64,000 nt of DNA from Bryobacterales bacterium. Its GTDB lineage: Bacteria; Acidobacteriota; Terriglobia; Bryobacterales; Bryobacteraceae. The stretch is from positions 132,266 through 196,265 of the forward strand of contig PMUP01000097.1 in the NCBI GenBank assembly GCA_003166865.1, given 5' to 3'. How positions within the stretch are numbered: position 1 is the stretch's first letter; each line of letters opens with the position of its first letter. Positions 4,600-51,536 of this stretch are shown one piece after another. Both the position numbers and the translations under genes were made by a program. Below the pieces are notes generated by a model, which made no database searches, was not told the origin of the DNA, and saw only the letters and a program-made list of their open reading frames with translations.

Positions 4600-6387
4600 A
4601 TGGTGCATCATAACGGGTTTTTAGTCGTAGTGTCGGTGTTGTCGTTCGTCGGGCTGTTAGCCTGTAAAACGTCCTCTTCTCAGAAATCATTCCCCTTCGA
4701 GGACGTCTCCAAACAGGTCGGGATAGACTTCTGGCAGTATTCCGGCGCCACGGGCGAGATGCTTCTTCCCGAAATGGTCGGATCTGGCGCCGCGCTGTTC
4801 GACTACGATAACGACGGCGATATGGACGTTTATCTGGTCCAGGGGTATCCCACCGCTCCTCAAGGCAAGCCTCTGGTGCCCGTTCCGCCGGGTTGGAAAC
4901 CGGGCAACCGCCTGTTCCGGAATAATCTCGCCGAAACGGGCAAACTGACGTTCACCGATGTCACGGAATCGGCTGGATTGGGCTACGCCGATAAAGGCAT
5001 GGGCGTGGCAGCCGGCGACTACGACAACGACGGGTACGTCGATCTCTATGTCACCAATTACGGCCACAACATTCTGTATCACAACAACGGAAACGGCACG
5101 TTCACAGATGTAACCGCCAGCGCCGGTGTCGCTTCATCCGGCTGGTCCACTAGCGCCGCATTCATCGATTACGACCGGGACGGCCGGCTGGACATTGCGG
5201 TGGTTCACTATGTCGACTTCTATCGCCGTCCTTGCTACATGTTCGATGGCAGACTCGATTATTGCGGTCCGTCACCTTTCAAGGGAACGGCGACCGAGTT
5301 GTACCACAACCTCGGGAACGGGCGGTTCAAAAATGTGACCGAGGAGGTCGGTCTGAACGCGAAGCCGGGGCCCGGGCTCGGCATTTTGACGGGAGATTTC
5401 GGTGCCGACGGGTTTCCCGGTTTCATGGTCGCCAACGATGGCGCGGCGAATTATCTCTGGATCAATGAGCGCAGCGGCCCGCAATCGAAGCCGGGCATTA
5501 GTGTATTCAACGACAGAGTATTCAAAGAAGCGGGGCTCACCCACGGGCTGGCCTATGCTTCGGACGGCAGGCCGCGGGCCGGCATGGGCATTGCTTCGGG
5601 CGATATTTTTGCCGACGGCGGCGAATCCATCATCGTGACGAACCTGCCGACCGAGGCGTTCACGCTGTTTCAACGACAGCCGAATGGGGACTTTGTAGAC
5701 GCGACGGAGCAATCGGGGCTGTCGCATATTTCCCTGCCCTATACGGGATTTGGCGTGGGCCTCTTCGATATGACAAATAGCGGGTTATTGGACATGTTCA
5801 GCGCGAATGGCGGCGTGAGATCCATGGCCGGGGATTTGAAGTCGAATCCGAAGGGCGATCCGTTTCCCTACCGCGAGCGCAAGTTGTTGCTGCGGAATGT
5901 CGGAAAAGGGAAAGGGTTCGAAGATATTACGGCGCAAGCGGGTCCGGCGCTGGCTACCGAGGAGGTGAGCCGGGCGGCGGCGTTCGGCGACGTAAATAAC
6001 GACGGTGGAGTGGACATCCTGGTGACGAATAATAATGGCCCCGCGCGGCTGCTGCTGAACACCGTGCCAAACCGCGGACATTGGCTGCTGGTTCATCTGG
6101 AGGGCACGAAAACTAATCGTTCGGCATATGGGAGCGTGGTGGAACTGGTGCGCAAGGATGGCACATCGGTGAAGGCGTGGGTGAGAGGGGATGGGAGTTA
6201 CCTGGCGGCCAACGACCCCCGGGTTCATTTCGGTTTGGGGAAGGACGCCGAGGTGAATCGCATACGAGTTTATTGGCTGGCGGGTGAATGCGAGTCGTGG
6301 AGCCAGATAAAAACGGATGCGATTCTGAATCTGAAGGAAGGCACGGGTCAATCGTGCGTCGTAGTGCCGTCAGGGTCGAGTCACTGA
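4600..6387 (+). CDS. CRTAC1/ASPIC-UnbV secreted lipoprotein, copy A
   Basis: 595 residues from ATG 4600 (an ATG at 4582 is in frame; 4600 gives the cleaner lipoprotein signal, ending LLAC). The protein is built of FG-GAP/VCBS-type calcium-binding blades: FDYDNDGDMDVYLVQG, AGDYDNDGYVDLYVTN, IDYDRDGRLDIAVVHY and GDVNNDGGVDILVTNN. It ends in an ASPIC/UnbV domain (NRSAYGSVVELV ... NDPRVHFGLGKDAEVNRI). Such proteins form beta-propellers and are common in Acidobacteriota, but their function is unknown. The paralogue at 6942 is nearly parallel over its whole length. A copy of this gene's last ~60 bp, including its stop codon, lies at 6790-6854. Confidence 0.9.
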   Translation: MVHHNGFLVVVSVLSFVGLLACKTSSSQKSFPFEDVSKQVGIDFWQYSGATGEMLLPEMVGSGAALFDYDNDGDMDVYLVQGYPTAPQGKPLVPVPPGWKPGNRLFRNNLAETGKLTFTDVTESAGLGYADKGMGVAAGDYDNDGYVDLYVTNYGHNILYHNNGNGTFTDVTASAGVASSGWSTSAAFIDYDRDGRLDIAVVHYVDFYRRPCYMFDGRLDYCGPSPFKGTATELYHNLGNGRFKNVTEEVGLNAKPGPGLGILTGDFGADGFPGFMVANDGAANYLWINERSGPQSKPGISVFNDRVFKEAGLTHGLAYASDGRPRAGMGIASGDIFADGGESIIVTNLPTEAFTLFQRQPNGDFVDATEQSGLSHISLPYTGFGVGLFDMTNSGLLDMFSANGGVRSMAGDLKSNPKGDPFPYRERKLLLRNVGKGKGFEDITAQAGPALATEEVSRAAAFGDVNNDGGVDILVTNNNGPARLLLNTVPNRGHWLLVHLEGTKTNRSAYGSVVELVRKDGTSVKAWVRGDGSYLAANDPRVHFGLGKDAEVNRIRVYWLAGECESWSQIKTDAILNLKEGTGQSCVVVPSGSSH

Positions 6388-6439
6388 CGAGTCTGAGGCT
6401 CCCCCGCCGTGTTTCGCAACGCGTTACAATCGGCGCGTG

Positions 6440-6721
6440 ATGGAGGAAGAGCGGCACGAGGAAAGCCCGCCAACGAAGTGGTTAATCCCCGCCTGCGCGG
6501 TTTTCGTATTCTTGTGCGGGTGCGGAAAACCTAAGGCCCCTTACCAGCGGTTCGTTCCCCTATCGAGTCAGCCTGAAAGCCTCAAAGGCGATGCGTGGCA
6601 GGGAGCTTATGCACTCGATACGAAGACAGGCCAGCTTTGCGTAACATTCGATCCGAGCGCCTCCCGCTCTGCAGGCGCAGTTCCAACTTGCTTAAAACTC
6701 TACCGCGACTTTCCTGATTAG
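6440..6721 (+). CDS. Small putative lipoprotein of unknown function
   Basis: 93 residues from ATG 6440 (a GTG at 6437 is also possible). A charged start is followed by a hydrophobic segment ending in a lipobox (FVFLCGCGKPK). The mature part contains YALDTKTGQLCVTFD, a pattern I have seen in short bacterial outer-layer proteins ending in a conserved Cys. The gene lies between two CRTAC1-like paralogues on the same strand and may have been carried in or trapped during the duplication that produced them. Function unknown. Confidence 0.6.
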   Translation: MEEERHEESPPTKWLIPACAVFVFLCGCGKPKAPYQRFVPLSSQPESLKGDAWQGAYALDTKTGQLCVTFDPSASRSAGAVPTCLKLYRDFPD

Positions 6722-6789
6722 GAAATCATGCCATCGTAGACACATTCAACAAGCTGACCGAGATTATTGACCAACGGCGAGCTGCAGGA

Positions 6790-6854
6790 ATCTGAAACAA
6801 GGCACGGGGCAACCGTGCGTCGTAGTGCCGTCAGAGTCGAGTCACTGACGGGTC
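6790..6854 (+). repeat. Relic of the 3' end of CRTAC1 copy A
   Basis: This stretch matches 6329-6393 with about six mismatches in 65 bp, including the stop codon and the bases after it. No matching upstream coding sequence precedes it. It is a leftover of a tandem duplication rather than part of a gene. Confidence 0.85.
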
Positions 6855-6911
6855 AAATTTGTGTCAAATTTTTACATTATTTGACAAACTTTTCTCAAAC
6901 CGCAATATGCT
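6852..6911 (+). promoter_or_regulatory. Promoter and possible operator of CRTAC1 copy B
   Basis: A perfect -35 TTGACA (6881-6886) is followed after 19 bp by TATGCT (6906-6911). Three GTCAAAT half-sites cover it: 6852-6858 and 6863-6869 as direct copies 11 bp apart, and an inverted copy ATTTGAC at 6879-6885 overlapping the -35. The spacing (one helical turn, then an inverted pair) suggests a dimeric regulator; the regulator is unknown. Confidence 0.5.
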
Positions 6912-6941
6912 GTACCCACGTCGAGACGGGGTGTAGTTGCA

Positions 6942-8663
6942 GTGTTGTTGTTACACGTGTTGTCCGCGTGTAGATACACGTCTGTTCATAAGGAGTCCCC
7001 TTTCGAGGACGTGGCCAAACAGACCGGGCTCGACTTCTGGCAGTTTTCCGGCGCCACGGGAGATTTCCTGCTGCCGGAGCTGATGGGATCGGGCGCTGCC
7101 CTGATCGACTACGATAACGACGGCGACCTGGACGTATTTCTGATCCAGGGCTCGCCAACGTATCCGCAAGGCACGCCGCTGGTGCCGATACCGGCCGGAT
7201 GGAAACCGGGCAATCGCCTGTTCCGCAATAACCTGCGCGAAACCGGGAAGCTTTCGTTCACCGACGTTACGGAATCGTCGGGCCTGGGCCTAGCCGATCA
7301 AGGCACGGGCGTGGCGGCGGGCGATTACGACAACGATGGGTACATTGATCTCTACGTCACCAATTACGGCCACAACGTTCTGTATCACAACAACGGCAAC
7401 GGCACGTTCACGGATGTGACCGCGACGGCGGGAGTGGCGTCGTCGGGATGGTCGACCAGCGCCGCGTTCATCGACTATGACAAGGACGGCCTGCTGGATC
7501 TGGTGGTGGTTCATTATCTGGACTTTTATCGCCGGCCTTGTTACACGCCGCAGGGATCGCCGAATTATTGCGGACCGCAGCCGTTCAAGGGGACGGTCAC
7601 TGAGGTGTACCACAACCTCGGGCAGGGGCGGTTCAAGAACGTCACGGATGAAGTCGGGTTAAACGCGAAACCGGGACCTGGGCTGGGCATCCTGACCGGG
7701 ACGTTCGGCACGAGCGGGTATCCGGATTTTCTGGTGGCCGACGATGGGGCGGCGAATCATCTTTGGATCAACGAGCGCAGGAGCCCGCAATCAAAGGAAA
7801 GCGATCGGGTGTTTCGTGAGGAGGGTCTGAGCCGCGGGCTCGCCTACGCTTCAGACGGGAAGCCGCGGGCCGGCATGGGGATTGCGTCGGGAGATTTGTT
7901 CGGCGATGGCGGTCAGGCCCTGGTGATTACCAATATTCCGACCGAGGCGTTCACCATGTTCCAGCGGCAGCCCACCGGGGATTTCATGGACGCCACCGAG
8001 CAGAGTGGACTCGCGCACATTTCCTTGCCGTATACGGGTTTCGGCGTGGGTTTAATCGATATGGAGAATCGGGGGCTGCTCGATCTGTTCACCGCCAATG
8101 GCGCGGTTAACGTGGCGATGGTGCGGGCGGGGGACAGGTTTCCCTACCGCGAGAAGAAGCTGTTGCTGAAAAATATGGGCAAGGGGAAGGCGTTTGAGAA
8201 TATTACGGCGTCCGCCGGTCCGGTTTTTCAGATTCCCGAGGTGAGCCGGGCCGCGGCTTTCGGCGACGTGAATAATGACGGCGGAATGGACATCCTGGTG
8301 ACGAATAATAATGGCCCCGCGCGGCTGCTGCTGAATACCGTGCCGAAGCGCGGGCATTGGCTCCTGGTACATCTCGAGGGCACGAAAACCAATCGTTCGG
8401 CATATGGGAGTGTGGTGGAACTTGTGCGGATGGACGGCACATCGGTCAAGGGGTGGGTGAGAGGCGATGGCAGTTACCTGGCGGCAAACGACCCGCGAGT
8501 TCATTTCGGTCTGGGGAAGGGCGCCGAGGTGAATCGCATACAAGTTTATTGGCTAGCTGGGGAATGCGAGTCGTGGAAGCAGACCGCGGTCGACACCATC
8601 GTGAATCTGAAGGAAGGCACGGGCCAGCCGTGCGAGAGGCTGTCCGCCGGCGCCGGCCGCTGA
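6942..8663 (+). CDS. CRTAC1/ASPIC-UnbV secreted lipoprotein, copy B
   Basis: 573 residues from GTG 6942. The short signal ends in a good lipobox (LLLHVLSAC). FG-GAP blades (IDYDNDGDLDVFLIQG, AGDYDNDGYIDLYVTNYG, GDVNNDGGMDILVTNN) are followed by an ASPIC/UnbV domain (NRSAYGSVVELV, NDPRVHFGLGKGAEVNRI). It is a paralogue of the gene at 4600 with long identical stretches, but the tail after the UnbV domain differs (EGTGQPCERLSAG here, EGTGQSCVVV in copy A). It has its own strong promoter, whereas copy A has none of comparable quality, so the two are probably regulated differently. Function unknown; extracytoplasmic calcium-stabilised binding is the family expectation. Confidence 0.9.
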   Translation: MLLLHVLSACRYTSVHKESPFEDVAKQTGLDFWQFSGATGDFLLPELMGSGAALIDYDNDGDLDVFLIQGSPTYPQGTPLVPIPAGWKPGNRLFRNNLRETGKLSFTDVTESSGLGLADQGTGVAAGDYDNDGYIDLYVTNYGHNVLYHNNGNGTFTDVTATAGVASSGWSTSAAFIDYDKDGLLDLVVVHYLDFYRRPCYTPQGSPNYCGPQPFKGTVTEVYHNLGQGRFKNVTDEVGLNAKPGPGLGILTGTFGTSGYPDFLVADDGAANHLWINERRSPQSKESDRVFREEGLSRGLAYASDGKPRAGMGIASGDLFGDGGQALVITNIPTEAFTMFQRQPTGDFMDATEQSGLAHISLPYTGFGVGLIDMENRGLLDLFTANGAVNVAMVRAGDRFPYREKKLLLKNMGKGKAFENITASAGPVFQIPEVSRAAAFGDVNNDGGMDILVTNNNGPARLLLNTVPKRGHWLLVHLEGTKTNRSAYGSVVELVRMDGTSVKGWVRGDGSYLAANDPRVHFGLGKGAEVNRIQVYWLAGECESWKQTAVDTIVNLKEGTGQPCERLSAGAGR

Positions 8664-42690: not shown

Positions 42691-44106
42691 TTAGTCGACT
42701 TTCGCGTCGAAAATTCCCGTCTCTATTACGCCGCGGTGCTTCATCTGTACGATGACGCGATAGTCGCCAGGGGTGGGAAATCCATAAGGAAAATCGGCTT
42801 CGGGTGGCAGGCCGGACATGTGGTGCATGCTGTGATCCTCGCCCGGCGTGGGATTCGCCAATGCGAGCGCCGCCATGGGTACGGACCCCGAGGGATGCAC
42901 GTGCGCGAATGCGGTGCCGTCGTTTTTCAGGAACGCCGCATGGCCCAACATTCCCATGTACAGTTCAGCATCCTGGACTGGTGCGCCGTCCCGATCGACC
43001 AGGCGAAACTTGAAGATGCTGGCCTGATGGGCTTTAGGCGGCACCGGATCGCGATCCCATACGATGTGTGCGCCATCCGGCGATTCGCCGCGGACGCCAG
43101 CGGCATCGTCGCCGCCGATGGGAGTCCCGGCCAAGTCTTGCGGAACGGTAAGGCTCGCGACCATGGTCTCCGCCAGGCCATCCCGGTGGACCACGTCGCC
43201 GTACAACTGGTATTGGCCGGCGGGAATCGGCGGCAAGGCAAGTGTGAAAACACCGCTCGCGGTCATCTCCGGATGCAGATGCCAGACGCGCGCGGCATCC
43301 GGCTGGCGAATCATATACAGGTGCATGAGATGGCCGTGATCCGGCAGAAAATCGTCGATCTTGCGTGGGACCGACCAGGCGGGATTGGCAAGGGTCAGCA
43401 CTAATCGGTCATTCGGAGCGATGCTTGTATGCACGATGCTGGCCGTCATTTGAAGAGGCCGGTAGAGGTTTCCTGCGAAGTCGCTGGCTTCTGCCGTCCA
43501 CCAGCGGTCGCCGGTCCAGAGAATCAGGATTACCAGAGCCGCGGTCGCCCCCATCAGAATGCGCGCGCGGCGTTTCGACCTTGTGGTAGCCTGCATTCCT
43601 GGTTCGAGCTGCCCTTCACGGACCCCCGCGCCTACGATGCTCACGAGTCCCACCGCGAGGACCATCATCATCGCGAACAGCGTTGCTCCCAGGGCGAATA
43701 GCATCGGCTTGGCCCGCGTCGCCACGGCCGGCACCGGCACCGAGAGCTGGCCGGCTCCCTTCGCGCCGTCGGCTTCGATTCGGACCTGCCATGAGCCGGG
43801 CGCCATCATCCATAAGGTTCCGGTGAAAAACTGTGCATCTGCCTTGGACCGCTGCATCGCGTCCGGCGTGGGAGCGAACTTCGCGGCTGCGCCAGTCAGA
43901 GGCGTGGGCGTGACGTGAATTGCTTGAATTTCCGGCGAGGCGCAGCGGATTTCGATCTCAGCGACGCCGGGGATCACCGACGGCGGCCGGATGGTGACGT
44001 ACATCGGGTACGGACCGGCTGAGCCTTCCAGGAACACGTCGGGGGAACCGACATGTGCGTAGGCGCACGCCGCGGTCCATGCGACGAGGAGCGCGCGCCG
44101 CATCAT
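42691..44106 (-). CDS. PmoB-like-topology, His-rich membrane-anchored protein
   Basis: 471 residues. ATG 44106 overlaps the upstream gene's stop as ATGA. The signal peptide is MRRALLVAWTAACAYA; cleavage after AYA would expose His18 (HVGSPDVF) as the mature N-terminus, as in CopC, LPMOs and PmoB. Layout: soluble beta domain (~18-130), two helices (~132-160 and ~181-199), then two His-rich soluble domains: DHGHLMHLYMI plus VWHLHPEM (H257, H259, H262, H276, H278), and GMLGHAAF plus FAHVHPSG (H389, H402, H404) with a DHSMHHM stretch. These soluble motifs resemble YtkA/FixH-like copper-associated domains. Soluble-TM-TM-soluble order matches subunit B of copper membrane monooxygenases. Sequence identity with PmoB is not evident by eye; function is inference. 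Confidence 0.65.
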   Translation of the reverse strand: MMRRALLVAWTAACAYAHVGSPDVFLEGSAGPYPMYVTIRPPSVIPGVAEIEIRCASPEIQAIHVTPTPLTGAAAKFAPTPDAMQRSKADAQFFTGTLWMMAPGSWQVRIEADGAKGAGQLSVPVPAVATRAKPMLFALGATLFAMMMVLAVGLVSIVGAGVREGQLEPGMQATTRSKRRARILMGATAALVILILWTGDRWWTAEASDFAGNLYRPLQMTASIVHTSIAPNDRLVLTLANPAWSVPRKIDDFLPDHGHLMHLYMIRQPDAARVWHLHPEMTASGVFTLALPPIPAGQYQLYGDVVHRDGLAETMVASLTVPQDLAGTPIGGDDAAGVRGESPDGAHIVWDRDPVPPKAHQASIFKFRLVDRDGAPVQDAELYMGMLGHAAFLKNDGTAFAHVHPSGSVPMAALALANPTPGEDHSMHHMSGLPPEADFPYGFPTPGDYRVIVQMKHRGVIETGIFDAKVD

Positions 44107-45269
44107 CGCTGAACCGTGCGCATCCAATCACCCCACCCGACGCCGATCCGCGATGTGACGATCGCGACCAACCAACCGATCCCCATCAACGTCCAGAAGT
44201 TGCTTTCGGGTCGCATAAACATCGAAAGAGCTTCAAACGAGTCGGAGGGATTCCCGTAGTCCCGGTACATGGTTCCGAAAAAAGCGTTCGCGGCCGCGGG
44301 CGTCATCAGAAAATTCGCGAAGGCCCACTGCGCGGCAAGAAAAACCACGAAGAAGACCGAGCCCAGCGCGCCTGCCTGAAGCCATCGATTCCATCCACCG
44401 AGACGCGGCCGCAGCAGATCGATGGCAATGGCCGGTACGATCAACAGCAGCGGAAAATCCGGCGGGATGAACTGGGATACCGGATTCAATACCGGACCCA
44501 GCTTGGGTTCCGCGGGGAACAGCGGCAGAATCCATATCAGGGATGCCGTGAAAAGCATGTACACGGAGGCAACGATGGTCGCGCTCCAGCGCCGGTCCGA
44601 CGCGATGGCGACTCCGATCAGCGACGTGGGCACCGCGATCGCGACCGAAATATAAAACCACGCGGTGTGTTGCTGGACATGACTGGTGTGCTCCATCGTG
44701 AGGATCTGCAAGACCACCACGATCATCGATCCGAGATACAGATACAACCAGCTCAGCCGCAGCCGTTCGTCCCCGTGGGCGCGATTCATGTAGCCGAGCA
44801 CCAGCATCAGCGCGCCGATCTCGATGGCAAGTATTCCCGCCGCCAGCACCATGTGCGGCGGGCTCAGGATCTTTACGTCGAGCCCATAGGCGTTGTGCCA
44901 CCAGTCGTCGAACGGCGCCGAGACTAGCATCGCAACGCCGCCCCAAGCTGTAACGAACGCGCCCAGCGGGCCGTGAAAACCCCACATCCGGACCGACGAC
45001 GCGCGGACCGCGGGCAAGCGACCGAACGTCGTCGCGAGGATCAGGTACGCCGACCAAATACCTGCGATCACGCCGCACAGATAAATCGCGATGTGCGGCG
45101 GCGTCCAGAAAGTATCGCGGCCAATCGAGCGGTGCCAGGAGATGTCCCAGTGCACGCCGATCATGGCCGAGGTGACGCCAATCACCGAAGCCCACAGATA
45201 CCAGGGAATAGTCGAAAGAGAGATGGCGCGTGGCTCCGCACGCGCCGGTAACGCAATGCTGTCCGCCAT
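44103..45269 (-). CDS. Ten-helix membrane protein with AmoC/PmoC-like copper-site motif
   Basis: 388 residues, ~10 helices (roughly 20-41, 60-82, 101-119, 140-160, 173-191, 202-222, 228-250, 272-287, 297-321, 358-376). The first outside loop reads DISWHRSIGRDTFWTPPH (D42, H46, H59): D-x3-H-x12-H. PmoC binds copper through Asp156, His160 and His173 with the same spacing, and AmoC/PmoC sequences I recall read D-x-T-W-H-x-T-I-x-R-D-T-D-F-T-P-x-H there. A second loop after helix 3 repeats it: DDWWHNAYGLDVKILSPPH (D121, H125, H139). EHTSHVQQH (194-201) adds further His. PmoC is ~250 residues, so the extra helices might cover subunit A. First gene of a coupled pair. No known family can be assigned with certainty. 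Confidence 0.65.
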   Translation of the reverse strand: MADSIALPARAEPRAISLSTIPWYLWASVIGVTSAMIGVHWDISWHRSIGRDTFWTPPHIAIYLCGVIAGIWSAYLILATTFGRLPAVRASSVRMWGFHGPLGAFVTAWGGVAMLVSAPFDDWWHNAYGLDVKILSPPHMVLAAGILAIEIGALMLVLGYMNRAHGDERLRLSWLYLYLGSMIVVVLQILTMEHTSHVQQHTAWFYISVAIAVPTSLIGVAIASDRRWSATIVASVYMLFTASLIWILPLFPAEPKLGPVLNPVSQFIPPDFPLLLIVPAIAIDLLRPRLGGWNRWLQAGALGSVFFVVFLAAQWAFANFLMTPAAANAFFGTMYRDYGNPSDSFEALSMFMRPESNFWTLMGIGWLVAIVTSRIGVGWGDWMRTVQR

Positions 45270-45654: not shown

Positions 45655-46782
45655 ATGAGCGACGTTTTCATCGTAGACGCCATTAGAACTCCGATCGGAC
45701 GTGGAAGGCCCGATGGGGCGCTGCACCATGTGCATCCGGTCGATCTGCTCGCGCAAACGCTCGAAGCCCTGATGGTGCATGCGCGCGTAGACAAGGGCCA
45801 GGTGGAAGATATCGTCACGGGTTGCGTCACGGCGCAGGGCGAACAGGGGACCAACATCGGCCGCCTGGCGGGCCTGAAAGCCGGCTTCCCGGTGGAGGTG
45901 CCGGCACTGCAACTGAACCGGTTCTGCGGCTCCGGCCAGCAAGCCATCCATTTCGCGGCGCAAGCGATTGCGGCGGGCGATATGGAGACGGCGATCGGTT
46001 GCGGCGTCGAATCGATGAGCCGGGTTCCGATGGGCTCGGACAGCGGGATCACCGACGAGTTTCGCGCCGACTTTCCGTGCCAACTGCTGCACCAGGGCGT
46101 TTCCGCCGAAATGATCGCCGCCAAGTGGGGCGTCGGACGCGAAGAGTTGGACGAGTTCGCCGCCGAGAGCCATTGCCGGGCAGCCGCCGCTCAACGTAAT
46201 GGCTGGACCCGATGCGAGATTTTCCCGATACACGCCCTGGAATCCGATGAAGGGGTGCGCTGGAATCCCGACCTTGCGAAAATGCGTGCGCTGAAGCCGG
46301 TCTTCCGGCCCGACGGCGTCGTCACTGCCGCGAATTCGAGCCAGATTTCAGACGGCGCGGCGGCTGTGCTGTTGGCGAGCGGCCGTAAAGCCGATGAGCT
46401 CGGATGGCGGAAGCGAGCGCGAATTGTTGCGAGAGCCGTGGTCGGCAGCGATCCGGAGTTGATGCTGACGGGTCCGATCCCAGCGACTCAAAAAGCTCTC
46501 GCGATGGCGGGACTGCAGGTGGAAGACATCGACGCCTTCGAGATCAACGAGGCCTTCGCGGCTGTTCCGCTGGCGTGGGCGCGCGACATCCGGCCGTCCA
46601 TGGACCGTGTGAACATTCAAGGCGGCGCGATCGCACATGGGCATCCGCTGGGCGCGACGGGCGCGGTGTTGATGACCAAACTGGTGAATATTCTCGAACG
46701 CACCGGCGGGCGCTACGGTCTGCAATCGATGTGCATTGGGTTCGGCATGGCGACGGCTACGATCATCGAATGTCTGAATTAG
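45655..46782 (+). CDS. Acetyl-CoA acetyltransferase (thiolase)
   Basis: 375 residues; GGAGG lies ~10 nt before the ATG. All thiolase catalytic elements are present: LNRFCGSGQQAIHF with nucleophile C91, FEINEAFAAVPLAW, GGAIAHGHPLGATGAV (His) and LQSMCIGFGMATATI (second Cys). It catalyses the last step of beta-oxidation or, in reverse, acetoacetyl-CoA formation. It converges on the acyl-CoA operon on the other strand (30 bp between stops), which supplies ligase, dehydrogenase and hydratase, so degradation of fatty or branched acids is the likely role. It is slightly shorter than typical thiolases (~390 aa). Confidence 0.95.
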   Translation: MSDVFIVDAIRTPIGRGRPDGALHHVHPVDLLAQTLEALMVHARVDKGQVEDIVTGCVTAQGEQGTNIGRLAGLKAGFPVEVPALQLNRFCGSGQQAIHFAAQAIAAGDMETAIGCGVESMSRVPMGSDSGITDEFRADFPCQLLHQGVSAEMIAAKWGVGREELDEFAAESHCRAAAAQRNGWTRCEIFPIHALESDEGVRWNPDLAKMRALKPVFRPDGVVTAANSSQISDGAAAVLLASGRKADELGWRKRARIVARAVVGSDPELMLTGPIPATQKALAMAGLQVEDIDAFEINEAFAAVPLAWARDIRPSMDRVNIQGGAIAHGHPLGATGAVLMTKLVNILERTGGRYGLQSMCIGFGMATATIIECLN

Positions 46783-46812
46783 TTCAACTTCTGAGTCGAT
46801 GTGCTCAGTAAT

Positions 46813-47658
46813 CTACTGGCCGGTGAACGCGGACGGGCGTTTTTCCAGGAAATGGGCTACGCCTTCCTTGAAATCCTCAGTTCCGAAACTGCCTTTCATC
46901 TCTTCAATCGCAAGGTCGAAAGCCTCGCCCAGGTTCTGCAAGAGACCGGTGTAGATCTGCTGCTTCATCACGCGTAACGATCGTGGCGATACGGTCGAAG
47001 CCAGTTCTCGCGCGAACTCCTGCACCGCTCCCAGAAAATTCTCTTCCGGCAGAACGCGGCTCACCAGGCCGATTCGCAGCGCCTCCCGCGCGTCGAAGAG
47101 CTTCGAGGTGTACATCAGCTCGATCGCGTTGCCGACGCCTACCAGTCTGGGCAGCATCCATGCCAGTCCATACTCGGCCACCAAGCCGCGCTTCGAAAAA
47201 ATTACCGAAAAGCGGGCTTTCTCCGATGCGAACCGGAAATCGCAGTACAGCGGCACGACGAAACCGAGCCCGACGGCGGGTCCGTTGATCGCCGCAATGA
47301 TGGGCTTTGGCACTGTCAGCAGCCACGCATGCTTTTTCTGAAAATCCGCCCGTACAGCGCCTTCGACTTTCATGTCGAATAGAAATTCAGAGCGCGGCGA
47401 GGACTCCTGCGAGATCGCGGAAAGTAGCGACATGTCCGCTCCAGCGCAAAAACCCTTACCGGCCCCGGTAAGAATAATGACGCGCACCTGATCGTCGGAG
47501 GACGCCGCTCGAATCGCCTCGGTCACTTCCTTTTCCATCGTCTCGGTCCAGGCGTTCAGCTTATCGGGCCGATTCAGCGTAACCGTGGCGACCTGGTTTG
47601 AAACCTCGTAGGCGATCTGCTCGTAGGGCACATCATGAGTATAAACTTCGTGATTCAC
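46813..47658 (-). CDS. Enoyl-CoA hydratase/isomerase family protein
   Basis: 281 residues. Crotonase fold: VTLNRPDKLNAWTETMEKEV, VIILTGAGKGFCAGADMSLL (oxyanion-hole strand), KPIIAAINGPAVGLGFVVPL and LVAEYGLAWMLPRLVGVGNA. The last stretch has Glu where many hydratases have one of the two catalytic Glu; the first position (GAAVGLG versus GPAVGLG) is not acidic, so hydratase activity is not certain and other crotonase reactions are possible. Its start overlaps the stop of the acyl-CoA ligase by 4 nt. Last gene of the run. Confidence 0.92.
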   Translation of the reverse strand: MNHEVYTHDVPYEQIAYEVSNQVATVTLNRPDKLNAWTETMEKEVTEAIRAASSDDQVRVIILTGAGKGFCAGADMSLLSAISQESSPRSEFLFDMKVEGAVRADFQKKHAWLLTVPKPIIAAINGPAVGLGFVVPLYCDFRFASEKARFSVIFSKRGLVAEYGLAWMLPRLVGVGNAIELMYTSKLFDAREALRIGLVSRVLPEENFLGAVQEFARELASTVSPRSLRVMKQQIYTGLLQNLGEAFDLAIEEMKGSFGTEDFKEGVAHFLEKRPSAFTGQ

Positions 47659-49262
47659 CGGTTGTATTTCACCTCGATCTCCCCCTTTGCGTGACGCGCC
47701 CGCAACACCTTCTTGTCGAACTTGCCAACGCTGGTCTTGGGCACCTCATCGAGGAACGCCCACCTCTCCGGGATCCACCATTTGGCGACTCGCTCGCTCA
47801 GATGCGCGCGCAGGTCGTCAATCGTCGTTTTGACACCGGGCTTAAGCACGACGCACGCGAGTGGACGCTCGTCCCAACGCTCGTCGGGAACACCGATCAC
47901 GGCCGCCTCCAACACGTCCGGGTGGCCGATAATCACGCCTTCCAACTCCACCGAGGAGATCCACTCGCCGCCAGATTTGATGACGTCCTTGGACCGGTCG
48001 GTGAGATGGATGTATCCGCGCTCGTCCACCGTGCCGACATCGCCCGTTCGCAGCCAGCCGTCGTGAAATTTGTCGGGTGTCGGGTCGCCGTAATACGACG
48101 CCGTCACCCAGGGTCCGCGCACTTCGATCTCGCCGATCGACTCGCCATCCCACTCGAGAACCTGTTCGCCAACGCACAGCCGCACTTCCACTCCGGGCAC
48201 CAACCTGCCGGTCTTCGTGATCCAGTTGATCTCCTCGCCCGCCGGACAATCCCTGGGCGGATGCGCCACGGCCGCGAGCGGGCTGGTCTCCGTCATGCCC
48301 CACGCCTGCACGATTTTGACGCCATACTTCTCAAGGAACTGCTCCGTCAGACTGCGCGGCACGGCACTCCCGCCGCATAACACCATACGGAGGGAAGAAA
48401 AGTCCACTGGCTTTGTAGACGCGTGGTGGAGTGCGGCGGCCCAGACCGTCGGCACCGCGCCGGCTATGGTCGGTCGGCAGGTTTGGATCATGCGGCATAC
48501 CGGCTCCGCTTGAAGGAAGGGCCCGGGCATCAGGAGGTCGGAGCCGGCCATCCATCCGGCGTATGGCAACCCCCAGGCGTTCGCGTGAAACATCGGAACG
48601 ATAACAAGAATGCGTTCGCGATCAGTCAGCCCGGCCGCCCACGGCTCGCACATCCCGAGGGTATGCAGGTACGTTGACCGATGGCTGTACGCCACGCCTT
48701 TCGGATCGCCCGTCGTACCCGTGGTGTAACACATGGCGGCTGCCGACCGCTCGTCAAGCACGGGCCAGTCGTACTCGGACCGCTCGGCCGCCAGCAGCTC
48801 CTCATAGCTCAGGATTTCGCCCGGCAACCCTTCTTCGCGGCCGATCACGATGTAAGATTCCACCGTTTTCAAATCCTTCGCTATTTTGGCAAGAAGCGGC
48901 GTCAAAGATCCGTCGACAATCACGACGCGGTCGCCGGCGTGATTGATGATATAGCTTAACTGCTCGGGAAAGAGCCGGAGGTTCAGCGTGTGCAGTACGG
49001 CGCCCATGCAGGGTACGGCAAAGTATGCCTCCAGATGCTGCTGCGTATTCCAGCCGAGGGTCCCCACACGGTCGCCAGCGCGAATCCCGATTCGTCGAAG
49101 CGCCGACGCCAGTTGCCTCGCGCGGGCAGCCACCTCACAGAAGCTGGCGCGGCGGACGCCGTCACCCGTCCAGGTTGCCACCTCGCTCGAACCGTGGATC
49201 TTCGCGCCCTGCTCAAGAATCGGCACGAGGGTCAACGGATAATCTTGCATCGTTCCAAACAT
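47655..49262 (-). CDS. Fatty acyl-CoA ligase (AMP-forming)
   Basis: 535 residues. ANL-superfamily motifs in order: YTTGTTGDPKGVAYSHRST (P-loop/A3), QAWGMTETSPLAA (A5), GWLRTGDVGTVDERGYIHL (A7), DRSKDVIKSGGEWISSVELE (A8) and KTSVGKFDKKVLR with the A10 catalytic Lys. This matches medium/long-chain fatty acyl-CoA synthetases. It activates free acids for the adjacent dehydrogenase and hydratase. An in-frame ATG at 49250 is an alternative start. Confidence 0.94.
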   Translation of the reverse strand: MFGTMQDYPLTLVPILEQGAKIHGSSEVATWTGDGVRRASFCEVAARARQLASALRRIGIRAGDRVGTLGWNTQQHLEAYFAVPCMGAVLHTLNLRLFPEQLSYIINHAGDRVVIVDGSLTPLLAKIAKDLKTVESYIVIGREEGLPGEILSYEELLAAERSEYDWPVLDERSAAAMCYTTGTTGDPKGVAYSHRSTYLHTLGMCEPWAAGLTDRERILVIVPMFHANAWGLPYAGWMAGSDLLMPGPFLQAEPVCRMIQTCRPTIAGAVPTVWAAALHHASTKPVDFSSLRMVLCGGSAVPRSLTEQFLEKYGVKIVQAWGMTETSPLAAVAHPPRDCPAGEEINWITKTGRLVPGVEVRLCVGEQVLEWDGESIGEIEVRGPWVTASYYGDPTPDKFHDGWLRTGDVGTVDERGYIHLTDRSKDVIKSGGEWISSVELEGVIIGHPDVLEAAVIGVPDERWDERPLACVVLKPGVKTTIDDLRAHLSERVAKWWIPERWAFLDEVPKTSVGKFDKKVLRARHAKGEIEVKYNR

Positions 49263-49284
49263 GCGGAATGCGCCTCACGGAAGT

Positions 49285-50457
49285 TTAGATTTTTTCTTCT
49301 TTGGCGATGATCTCTTTCATGATTTCGGAGGTCCCAGCGCCGATCGTGTTGAGGCGGAGGTCGCGCCACATGCGGCCAATCGCGTATTCGGTGGTATAGC
49401 CGAAGCCGCCGAAGATCTGCATGCAGTCATAAATCACTCTTTGAGAAAGATCGGACGTGTATAGCTTCGCCATGCTGATTTCCTTGACGGCGCGCTGGCC
49501 GCGATTCATGAGGTCGAGCGCGCGGTAAACCAGCCACCGCCCGGCTTCAATGCCGGTCAGGTGCTCGGCGAAGCGGTGACGCCAGACCTGGTACTTTCGC
49601 ACGGGAGTGCCGAAGGCTTCCCGCCCGGCACCGTATTCAAGGGCCTTGCGGACGGCATAATCCATCGACGCCAGGGCGCCGATCGCGGCAGCAAGCCGCT
49701 CGCCCTGGAAGTTGTGCATGATGTAGTAGAAGCCTTTGTTCAGTTCGCCGAGCACGAAGCGCCGGTCGACACGGCATTCATCAAAGAACAGCTCGGCCGT
49801 GTCCGACGCCAGATTGCCAATCTTGCGGAGCTTCTGTCCTACTGAAAACCCTTCGGTCTTGGCGGGGACCAGCACGAGCGAGATGCCTTTGTGGCCCTCC
49901 TCTCCAGTCCGAACGCCGAGCACGATAAAATCGGCGCGGCAGCCATTGGTGATCCACAACTTCTGACCCGAAATGACGAGCGTGTCACCGTCGATTCGCG
50001 CGCGGGTTTTCATCGCCGCAACGTCCGAACCACCACCGGGTTCACTGATGGCAAGAGCGGCAATCCAGTCGCCACGAATCGCCGGCGGCAGGAACTCCCA
50101 CTTTTGTTTTTCCGTGCCAAGCTCTTCGATTACGGGAATGGTTATGTCGGATTGGACCATGAATGCCATGCTGACACTCCCGCTTTCGGAGTAACGCATG
50201 GCTTCGAGGTAGGCCGCCGTGGCCCACCAATCGAGTCCGCTACCGCCCCACTTCGGATCTACCCGGATTCCGAAGAGTCCTAGAGCGCCGGCCTTTCGAA
50301 ACAGCTCACGCGGGAACTCCCCCTCTTCATCCCACCGCTCGGCATGCGGCGCGATTTCCTCCTGGCAGAACCGCTGCACCGTCTGCCGGATCATCTCGTG
50401 CTCTTCGGTGAAGCCGGGAAACGGCGTCGGGGTCGTTTCAGTCAGTTTTGCATTCAT
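49285..50457 (-). CDS. Acyl-CoA dehydrogenase
   Basis: 390 residues from ATG 50457, which overlaps the stop of the CoA-transferase-family gene as ATGA; a longer frame upstream would run far into that gene. FAD and substrate motifs: [38 protein letters not shown] and [20 protein letters not shown]. The C-terminal segment is [11 protein letters not shown] rather than the YEGTSQ of MCAD, so the catalytic base is not at the MCAD position; IVD/LCAD-type enzymes share this sequence and use a Glu in another helix. A long or branched-chain acyl substrate is therefore plausible. Confidence 0.94.
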
Positions 50458-51536
50458 AGGCGTCCCAGTTGTTCGTCGGTGTGTTCGCCTAGGCGCGGCG
50501 GCCGGCCGCCCAAGTGTCCCGGCGTGGCGCTCAGTCTTGGCACGACGACGCTCTCGCCCTTGCCGAGGTCGAAGTCGCGCATCACTTCGGACACGTTTCG
50601 TACAGGCGCCACGCAAGCATCGAACGGTTTCAAGTGAACGAACCATTCCTCGGCGGAGCGGGATTCGAATAGTCCCGACAGCGCCTCGATAATCTCGATC
50701 CGCCGCTTGCCCTCAGCGAATTGGTCGGGTATGAACTGTTCGCAGGCGAGTGCCCGGCACAGCGCCGCCCAGAACTTCGCTTCGAGTGCCCCAACCGAGA
50801 TCCATCGCCCGTCCGCGCACCGGTACAGGTGGTAGCAAGCGTAACGCCCGGTCAGCACGCTCGCGCCGCGCTCCGGTATCACTCCTGTGCCCTGGTAGAA
50901 CGCTAACGCGGCCGGTAACAGCCAAGCCACGCCATCCAGCATCGCGACATCCACCATCTGCCCCTGCCCGGTCCGGGATCGCGCCGCCAGAGCCAACAGC
51001 ACACCGATCACCGCTTGCAGAGCACCACCCGACAGGTCGGCAACCTGCACGCCGGGAATCGCCGGCGGCCCGCCCTCCGGCCCCGTGATATCGATCGCCC
51101 CGCCGAGCGCCATGTAATTGACATCGTGCCCCGCCATCTCTTTATATGGTCCATCTTGGCCGTACCCGGTAATCGCGATGTAAATCAGCCGCTCATTGCG
51201 TACCCGGAGGATTTGATAATCCAGGCCCAGCCGCGCCATCACTCCGGGGCGGAAGCTCTCCACCACAACATCGGCGCGCGAAACCAGGTCCAGAAACGCG
51301 GCCTTCCCCCGCGCATCCTTCAGATCCAAAGCCACGCTCTTTTTTCCGCGGTTCACCAAAGCAAAGACGGCGCCCTCTCCGTCGAGAAATGGCGGCATCG
51401 CCCGCCCGTAATCGCCGGTCCCCGGCTCCTCGATCTTGATCACGTCCGCGCCGAAATTGGCCAGCAACATCGTGGCCGCCCCGCCTGGAAGCAGCCGGCT
51501 AAGATCCAATACCGTGATTCCGTCGAGGGGTCTCAT
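50454..51536 (-). CDS. CaiB/BaiF family III protein, alpha-methylacyl-CoA racemase-like
   Basis: 360 residues. Family III CoA-transferase fold: [38 protein letters not shown] and [37 protein letters not shown] and [16 protein letters not shown] match the catalytic His/Asp neighbourhood of alpha-methylacyl-CoA racemases, which interconvert 2-methylacyl-CoA epimers before beta-oxidation. It is the first gene of the overlapping run, upstream of the acyl-CoA dehydrogenase. CoA transfer is the main alternative. Confidence 0.88.

Follow-up and report, generated by a model that had tools for sequence, protein, structure and literature searches.

A Probable PmoC-Type Copper Core Joined to a PmoA-Like Membrane Half in Soil Acidobacteriota: A Candidate Divergent Branch of the Copper Membrane Monooxygenases

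The Locus and Its Two Genes

We analyzed a stretch of 64,000 nucleotides (hereafter, the window) from contig PMUP01000097.1 of the Bryobacterales bacterium assembly GCA_003166865.1 (Acidobacteriota), in which two overlapping genes on the minus strand encode a membrane protein very probably related to the copper membrane monooxygenases (CuMMOs) and its putative exported partner. Gene 1 (44103..45269, minus strand) is an open reading frame (ORF) with an ATG start and a translation of 388 residues, while gene 2 (42691..44106, minus strand; 471 residues) begins within the end of gene 1, its start overlapping the gene 1 stop by 4 bases (ATGATG). Plus-strand coding of the gene 1 stretch was rejected, the frame translated there containing two stops. 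An AlphaFold2 model of the gene 1 protein, computed from 81 natural sequences, has a mean predicted local distance difference test score (pLDDT) of 92.6 and a predicted template modeling score of 0.90. It features ten long helices (residues 23–48, 57–81, 102–128, 137–163, 166–190, 203–224, 229–250, 277–290, 295–321 and 358–384), of which the first four form the part compared below with PmoC/AmoC (the C-half) and the last six the part compared with PmoA/AmoA (the A-half).

The Putative Copper-Site Motifs of Gene 1

The initial annotation of the window, made from the sequence alone, had described this ORF as a ten-helix protein carrying a motif, D42-x3-H46-x12-H59, at the spacing of the PmoC CuC ligands, embedded in an AmoC/PmoC signature and located between two helices, a description that we confirm. 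The CuC-type site (45093..45146, minus strand) runs, in the model, from the tail of helix 1 into the beginning of helix 2, and its longer form (D-x-S-W-H-x4-R-D-T-x2-T-P-x-H) includes R51, equivalent to Arg165 of PmoC. Nine positions of this stretch are identical in five reference AmoC/PmoC/HmoC proteins, taken from plasmids, and eight of the nine, R51 included, are also found in gene 1, the sole mismatch being an F in the references and W55 in gene 1. A second motif, D121-x3-H125-x13-H139 (44853..44909, minus strand), which had escaped the initial annotation, reaches from helix 3 to helix 4 and is spaced exactly like the CuD ligands; there, the references read N-E-(W/F)-G-H...A-P-(L/I)-H, while gene 1 reads D-D-W-W-H...S-P-P-H. 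According to PMC12576850, the PmoC ligands are Asp156, His160 and His173 for CuC, and Asn227, His231 and His245 for CuD.

Conservation was assessed in an alignment of 81 sequences, i.e., the gene 1 protein and the best 80 of at least 549 confirmed relatives. All six ligand residues (D42, H46, H59, D121, H125 and H139) are invariant (81/81), which settles in its favor the conservation that the initial annotation had expected of the first three, and so are R51, D52 and D131. The Asn found at the CuD position of PmoC is an Asp in all 81 sequences, both histidines being invariant. Moreover, the two spacings, in order and 50–110 residues apart, occur in 2 of 200,000 shuffles of the gene 1 protein and in none of the 1354 mechanically called ORFs of at least 200 residues that were taken from the fetched loci and match neither gene, versus 81 of 81 family members. 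On these three grounds, a motif arising by chance was rejected.

Relationship of the N-Terminal Half to PmoC/AmoC

The C-half (residues 13–163; 44781..45233, minus strand) was compared with the five references using hhalign. For residues ~15–165, local alignment yielded an E-value of 1.1e-4 (score 35.5, the top of 30 shuffles reaching 31.6) and global alignment an E-value of 1.9e-5 (score 28.9, the top of 30 column shuffles reaching 7.5), with both copper sites in register; the whole gene 1 protein scored 35.7 against the PmoC profile, the maximum of 60 shuffles being 23.9. At the level of profile–profile comparison, the sequence relation of the C-half to PmoC holds. Gene 1 is missing the N-terminal part of PmoC (~100 residues), as the references enter the global alignment only from about column 103 onward. 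Consistent with this relation, a profile of 11 divergent family members (A1) has exactly three PDB matches at E ≤ 10, all AmoC (E 0.0067–0.023), and PF04896 (AmoC) is the commonest family when the 81 members are scanned singly (14 of them at E ≤ 1, best 7.5e-4). Of the link to PF04896 and PF02461 envisaged in the initial annotation, it is the PmoC side that emerges by sequence, from the profile–profile comparison and not from the protein taken alone. Other labels returned by single-sequence scans of gene 1 were discarded as weak unrelated matches (e.g., DUF6131 and PEP_his_kin), and the NCBIfam scan of this single sequence gave no AmoC or AMO match.

Predicted Similarity of the C-Terminal Half to PmoA/AmoA

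The A-half (residues 165–388; 44106..44777, minus strand) has a predicted PmoA/AmoA-like fold. When the gene 1 model was submitted to VIA-align 2, the top 13 rows were all PmoA/AmoA chains, with Z from 14.8 to 10.1 and the following fold at 8.7, values to be set against the typical best Z of 14 that the makers of the tool give for five mainly helical models lacking any clear match. The first row, 6cxh_B (Z 14.8), aligns 195 residues with a root-mean-square deviation of 3.6; the 13 matches cover mostly residues 165–388, at 9–15% identity to PmoA/AmoA. That these chains are A subunits was established with a PmoA profile, which finds them in those entries as subunit A, the C subunits of the same entries having other chain letters. 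We trust the match because the 13 rows belong to one family, a large gap follows them and the sequence of the C-half points to the same enzyme; the resemblance to PmoA that the initial annotation had thought worth looking for in a structural model is thus recovered. Furthermore, the weak sequence alignment of the A-half with PmoA has the same register (273 to 124) as the structural alignment. A search of the viral fold library gave nothing useful. Gene 1 is most likely a C–A fusion, the C part being recognized by sequence and helix placement and the A part by predicted structure. Throughout the 81-sequence alignment, a single open frame spans both parts, whereas standard CuMMOs have separate genes.

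The Putative Exported Partner

The predicted layout of gene 2 (AlphaFold2 pLDDT 93.4) consists of a putative signal peptide followed by a beta domain, a pair of long helices and more beta domains. In PmoB, the order is beta domain, two helices, beta domain, and gene 2 resembles PmoB/AmoB (PF04744) in this order, in its putative signal peptide, in its putative mature N-terminal His and in being encoded next to the C and A parts. It differs by its lack of sequence similarity, by the absence of two of the CuB histidines and by an additional His-rich beta domain. The putative mature N-terminal His is H18 (44053..44055, minus strand), just after the cleavage site proposed by eye (AYA|H): a His follows the putative signal peptide in all 82 rows of the gene 2 alignment, preceded by Ala in 77 of them, and the N-terminal His of the reference PmoB proteins likewise follows A-x-A. 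Gene 2 is directly downstream of gene 1 in 71 of the 80 loci examined, the codon for the putative N-terminal His lying 42–237 nucleotides past the gene 1 stop in 70 of these 71 (L067 left out).

The N-domain of gene 2 has as its best structural match the copper-resistance protein CrdA of Helicobacter (Z 10.4 over 100 residues, with unrelated folds reaching 9.4); among PDB sequences, too, this CrdA chain ranks first for gene 2, albeit insignificantly (E 0.77). An N-terminal His is also a feature of CopC and YcnI. Gene 2 differs from CrdA, CopC and YcnI in that it is predicted to be membrane-anchored, has further domains and is linked to a PmoC-like protein rather than to CopD. In Pfam, three of 68 members match YtkA-like (best 6.4e-5), other families being scattered, and there is no CopC or YcnI match for gene 2 itself or among the 25 families listed for its relatives. 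No second His reaches 90% conservation in the N-domain among the 82 rows. The C-terminal beta domains (42691..43452, minus strand) are possibly copper-binding, with the motifs DHGHLMH, HLHP, GHAA and HVHP; their many conserved histidines are mostly lost in L014, the most distant acidobacterial member, which keeps the N-terminal His.

Distribution and Genomic Context

Counting the genome under study, homologues of gene 1 are present in 16 of 297 genomes across the phylum and, within the order, in 66 of 200. The pair is thus common in Acidobacteriota but its distribution is patchy, since two genomes of the same genus have no homologue. A scan of GTDB contigs yielded at least 549 confirmed relatives among at least 593 candidate stretches, of which the best 80 come mostly from Acidobacteriota groups, the few others including Myxococcales and Acidimicrobiia. 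Three cultured strains, Acidipila rosea (L076), Granulicella aggregans (L098) and Silvibacterium bohemicum (L096), each carry gene 1 followed by gene 2; all three are known as heterotrophs. Within the open-access (PMC) literature, to which the search was limited (subscription papers and preprints being outside its scope), we found no description of the family.

Neighboring genes were clustered from rough gene calls based on codon-position G+C (guanine plus cytosine) content, in which 65 of the 80 loci contribute to the gene 1 cluster and 68 to the gene 2 cluster. As no other cluster is found in more than 14 of 80 loci, the pair looks self-contained. The ten commonest neighbors are an outer-membrane beta-barrel protein, a short-chain dehydrogenase, a MacB/FtsX permease, an ATP-binding cassette ATPase, an esterase-like hydrolase, a signal recognition particle GTPase, two riboflavin-synthesis genes, an AMP-binding enzyme and a major facilitator superfamily transporter. 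The short-chain dehydrogenase was considered as a functional clue and set aside, its 13 loci (second position after gene 1 in six) being too few. In the window itself, the neighbors include genes for a hybrid histidine kinase, a thiolase, an enoyl-CoA hydratase, an AMP-binding enzyme and an acyl-CoA dehydrogenase. The last four of these, beta-oxidation genes, lie upstream of gene 1 at 45655–50646, the thiolase being divergent. As a pathway clue, beta-oxidation was also rejected: thiolase, hydratase and acyl-CoA dehydrogenase are outside the ten commonest clusters, and the AMP-binding enzyme occurs in five loci.

Relatives of gene 1 also exist on six actinobacterial plasmids, where they either bear the label hypothetical or have no annotation. 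Five regions were read, and the four intact proteins found there (475–496 residues; L125 5932–7377, L126 5995–7428, L128 5953–7443 and L129 5962–7389) all keep both sites. After the membrane part and a hydrophobic stretch, they carry an extra domain that begins A-H-D-P-G-Q-G and, from its sequence, looks like a fused N-terminal-His domain, the gene 2 profile match there being non-significant. In the fifth region, on a Rubrobacter marinus plasmid (L127 ~5900–7022), the C-half and the A-half occupy separate frames, the annotation covering the second half alone; the frame break may be a frameshift, a sequencing error or a split gene.

A Divergent Oxygenase or a Copper-Handling System?

It is very likely that gene 1 combines a PmoC core with a PmoA-like half and that it belongs with the CuMMO superfamily. 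With PmoC/AmoC (PF04896), it shares the D/H/H of CuC, the ligands at the CuD position (with Asn changed to Asp), identical spacings, the equivalent of Arg165 and the placement of the sites at helix ends, but it lacks the N-terminal ~100 residues and is fused to a second membrane half. With PmoA/AmoA (PF02461), it shares the best structural match of residues 165–388, but neither a Pfam match nor a sequence similarity above shuffles. The pair is not filed as a standard CuMMO because it lacks a complete CuB site, three separate subunits and a sequence-recognizable A subunit. The nearest precedent is provided by the CuMMOs of Thermoplasmata, which, according to PMC9038741, are likewise highly divergent, come from soil genomes and conserve CuC; they have A, B and C proteins, all three CuB histidines and no D site, so that they keep CuB and not the D site, while gene 1 and gene 2 do the reverse.

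The most far-reaching reading, to which we attach a probability of roughly 45%, is that the pair represents an unrecognized deep CuMMO branch, widespread in soil Acidobacteriota and extending into Actinomycetota, with a CuC/CuD core and a PmoA half on one polypeptide, and that it performs a CuB-free oxidation of a substrate not linked to these heterotrophs. In our preferred reading, gene 1 would provide a four-helix copper core of PmoC/AmoC type, devoid of the N-terminal ~100 residues and joined to a six-helix PmoA/AmoA-like half, whereas gene 2, exported and held by a two-helix anchor, would take the place of PmoB with its mature N-terminal His. Together, they would form a copper-loaded membrane complex, in which the CuC/CuD-type sites, situated where helices 1–4 reach the periplasm, would hold the copper that activates O2 for the oxidation of a small, probably hydrophobic substrate, gene 2 supplying copper or electrons. 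What the data show is the two ligand sets and their invariance, the profile relation to PmoC, the PmoA-like fold of the model and a linked partner whose invariant His sits behind a hydrophobic start; we infer how the proteins lie in the membrane, that the signal is cleaved, that copper binds, that a complex forms, and what chemistry and substrate are involved. As regards oxygenase chemistry as such, the odds would be about even. Retention of the A-like half along with the two copper sites in the membrane speaks for it; copper handling is favored by the absence of CuB and by the setting of the actinobacterial relatives. The initial annotation had proposed a divergent CuMMO subunit or a C–A fusion, and both structural guesses hold up; its monooxygenase side fares less well, the partner being without two of the three CuB His and several actinobacterial relatives sitting among copper-resistance genes.

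A number of results weigh against the preferred reading, beginning with those on gene 1. Taken alone, its protein has no PF04896 or PF02461 match in Pfam at E ≤ 10, and a profile of the 81 closer members (A2) has no PDB match at the same threshold. PF04896 finds a single place at E ≤ 10 in the own genome, the motif region of gene 1, at 11 bits and below the cut-off, which alone means little since sub-cut-off matches were also obtained in 2 of 14 control genomes. For the A-half against three PmoA, hhalign gave an E-value of 0.0085 and a score of 24.7, below the 29.2 reached by the top of 30 column shuffles. The high typical Z of unmatched helical models bears on its structural match, and Foldseek returned nothing at E ≤ 0.001 for the gene 1 model: an unrelated helical repeat protein heads the list, and below it come AmoA 9cl6_B (second, probability 0.99), PmoA 9cl1_Ca (ninth, 0.77) and AmoC 9pxf_G (0.47). 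As for gene 2, its identification with PmoB by sequence was rejected, hhalign (E 0.049) doing no better than shuffles, and the best place for PF04744 in the genome is on contig 80, not in gene 2, and below the cut-off. By eye, the CuB motif W-H-V-H or Y-H-L-H of PmoB corresponds to mainly W-Q-V-R in gene 2, with Gln (62/82) and Arg (68/82) at the other two CuB His positions. PmoB is not among the listed structural matches of gene 2 either, an absence that proves nothing because the Foldseek list is full of immunoglobulin-like (complement protein) domains. Finally, gene 1 occurs without gene 2 in 9 of the 80 loci, no conserved substrate pathway is found nearby among the ten commonest neighbor clusters, and three of the five plasmid regions (L126, L128 and L129) contain copper or heavy-metal genes, namely P-type ATPases, cupredoxins, a multicopper oxidase and a copper-binding bundle protein (of the other two, one has weaker copper hints and one none).

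These plasmid regions, in which both sites are retained in every intact protein, lend substance to the main alternative, which we regard as a real possibility, short of probable: copper handling (uptake, efflux or Cu(I)-oxidizing detoxification) on a CuMMO-type scaffold and without any substrate oxidation. The N-terminal His and the His-rich domains of gene 2 would then catch copper and pass it to the membrane sites, in the manner proposed for YcnI/YcnJ or CopC/CopD, a route in keeping with CrdA as the best structural match of its N-domain and with the loss of the other two CuB histidines. The ycn operon of B. subtilis, which encodes YcnI and the putative importer YcnJ, is associated with copper uptake in PMC8424229 and PMC12362106. 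However, copper genes are absent from the ten commonest neighbor clusters of the 80 loci and from the ten window neighbors scanned (both with Pfam), Pfam gives no CopD match for the gene 1 protein at E ≤ 10, and copper handling leaves unexplained why both catalytic-type sites were retained together with a PmoA-like half.

Two further explanations appear much less plausible than either an oxygenase or a copper-handling system. An unrelated membrane protein, resembling PmoC by chance or by convergence on a metal site, would account for the failure of the gene 1 protein to match any family above a cut-off on its own and for the non-significant sequence comparison of the A-half. We nevertheless deem it improbable in view of the two ligand sets at two exact spacings, which shuffling almost never reproduces, of the PmoC profile match in register of both sites and of the other half independently giving PmoA as best fold. 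Least credible of all is that the organism is an Acidobacterium living by methane or ammonia oxidation with a monooxygenase of the standard type. The conservation of the CuC and CuD ligand sets would suit this idea, but the genome (~96% complete) has no PF02461 match at E ≤ 10 and nothing above the cut-off for PF04896 or PF04744, the C and A parts are fused, the CuB ligands are missing, there is no pmoCAB gene order and the carriers include the cultured heterotrophs named above.

The active site of the particulate methane monooxygenase and of the ammonia monooxygenase, be it CuB, CuC or CuD, is the subject of a long-standing dispute. If the oxidation reading is true, a family keeping CuC and CuD but not CuB would offer a direct test of this question, perhaps with a protein easier to express, given the smaller two-gene form in culturable strains. 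The superfamily, which plays a central part in methane and nitrogen cycling, would moreover gain a hidden group that marker-gene surveys based on amoA/pmoA could not see. If the pair handles copper instead, a CuMMO scaffold would be serving metal homeostasis, which bears on the origins of the enzyme.

Additional Observations

Eight of the nine loci with gene 1 only have more than 4 kb of downstream sequence, the remaining one ending 505 bases after gene 1. Gene 1 copies without gene 2 were noted in L022, L069, L073, L079, L090, L091, L097 and L100. In L069, L073 and L079, the same gene comes next, on the opposite strand, and its start resembles, by eye, glycine-cleavage-T/YgfZ proteins. Two genomes hold both forms, as seen in the pairs L024/L090 and L030/L091. 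In the acidobacterial L010 (1435–2637), a TAG stop interrupts gene 1, the gene 2 frame behind it being intact.

Genes for AmoC were also encountered on plasmids and IMG/VR contigs. Nitrosomonas and Methylocystis plasmids carry amoC (L120 3668–4483 and L122 3674–4447), and the plasmid gene table, which is incomplete, lists neither an A nor a B gene within 4 kb of it. Likewise, amoC genes close to bacterial AmoC are present on 19 IMG/VR contigs (L101–L119).

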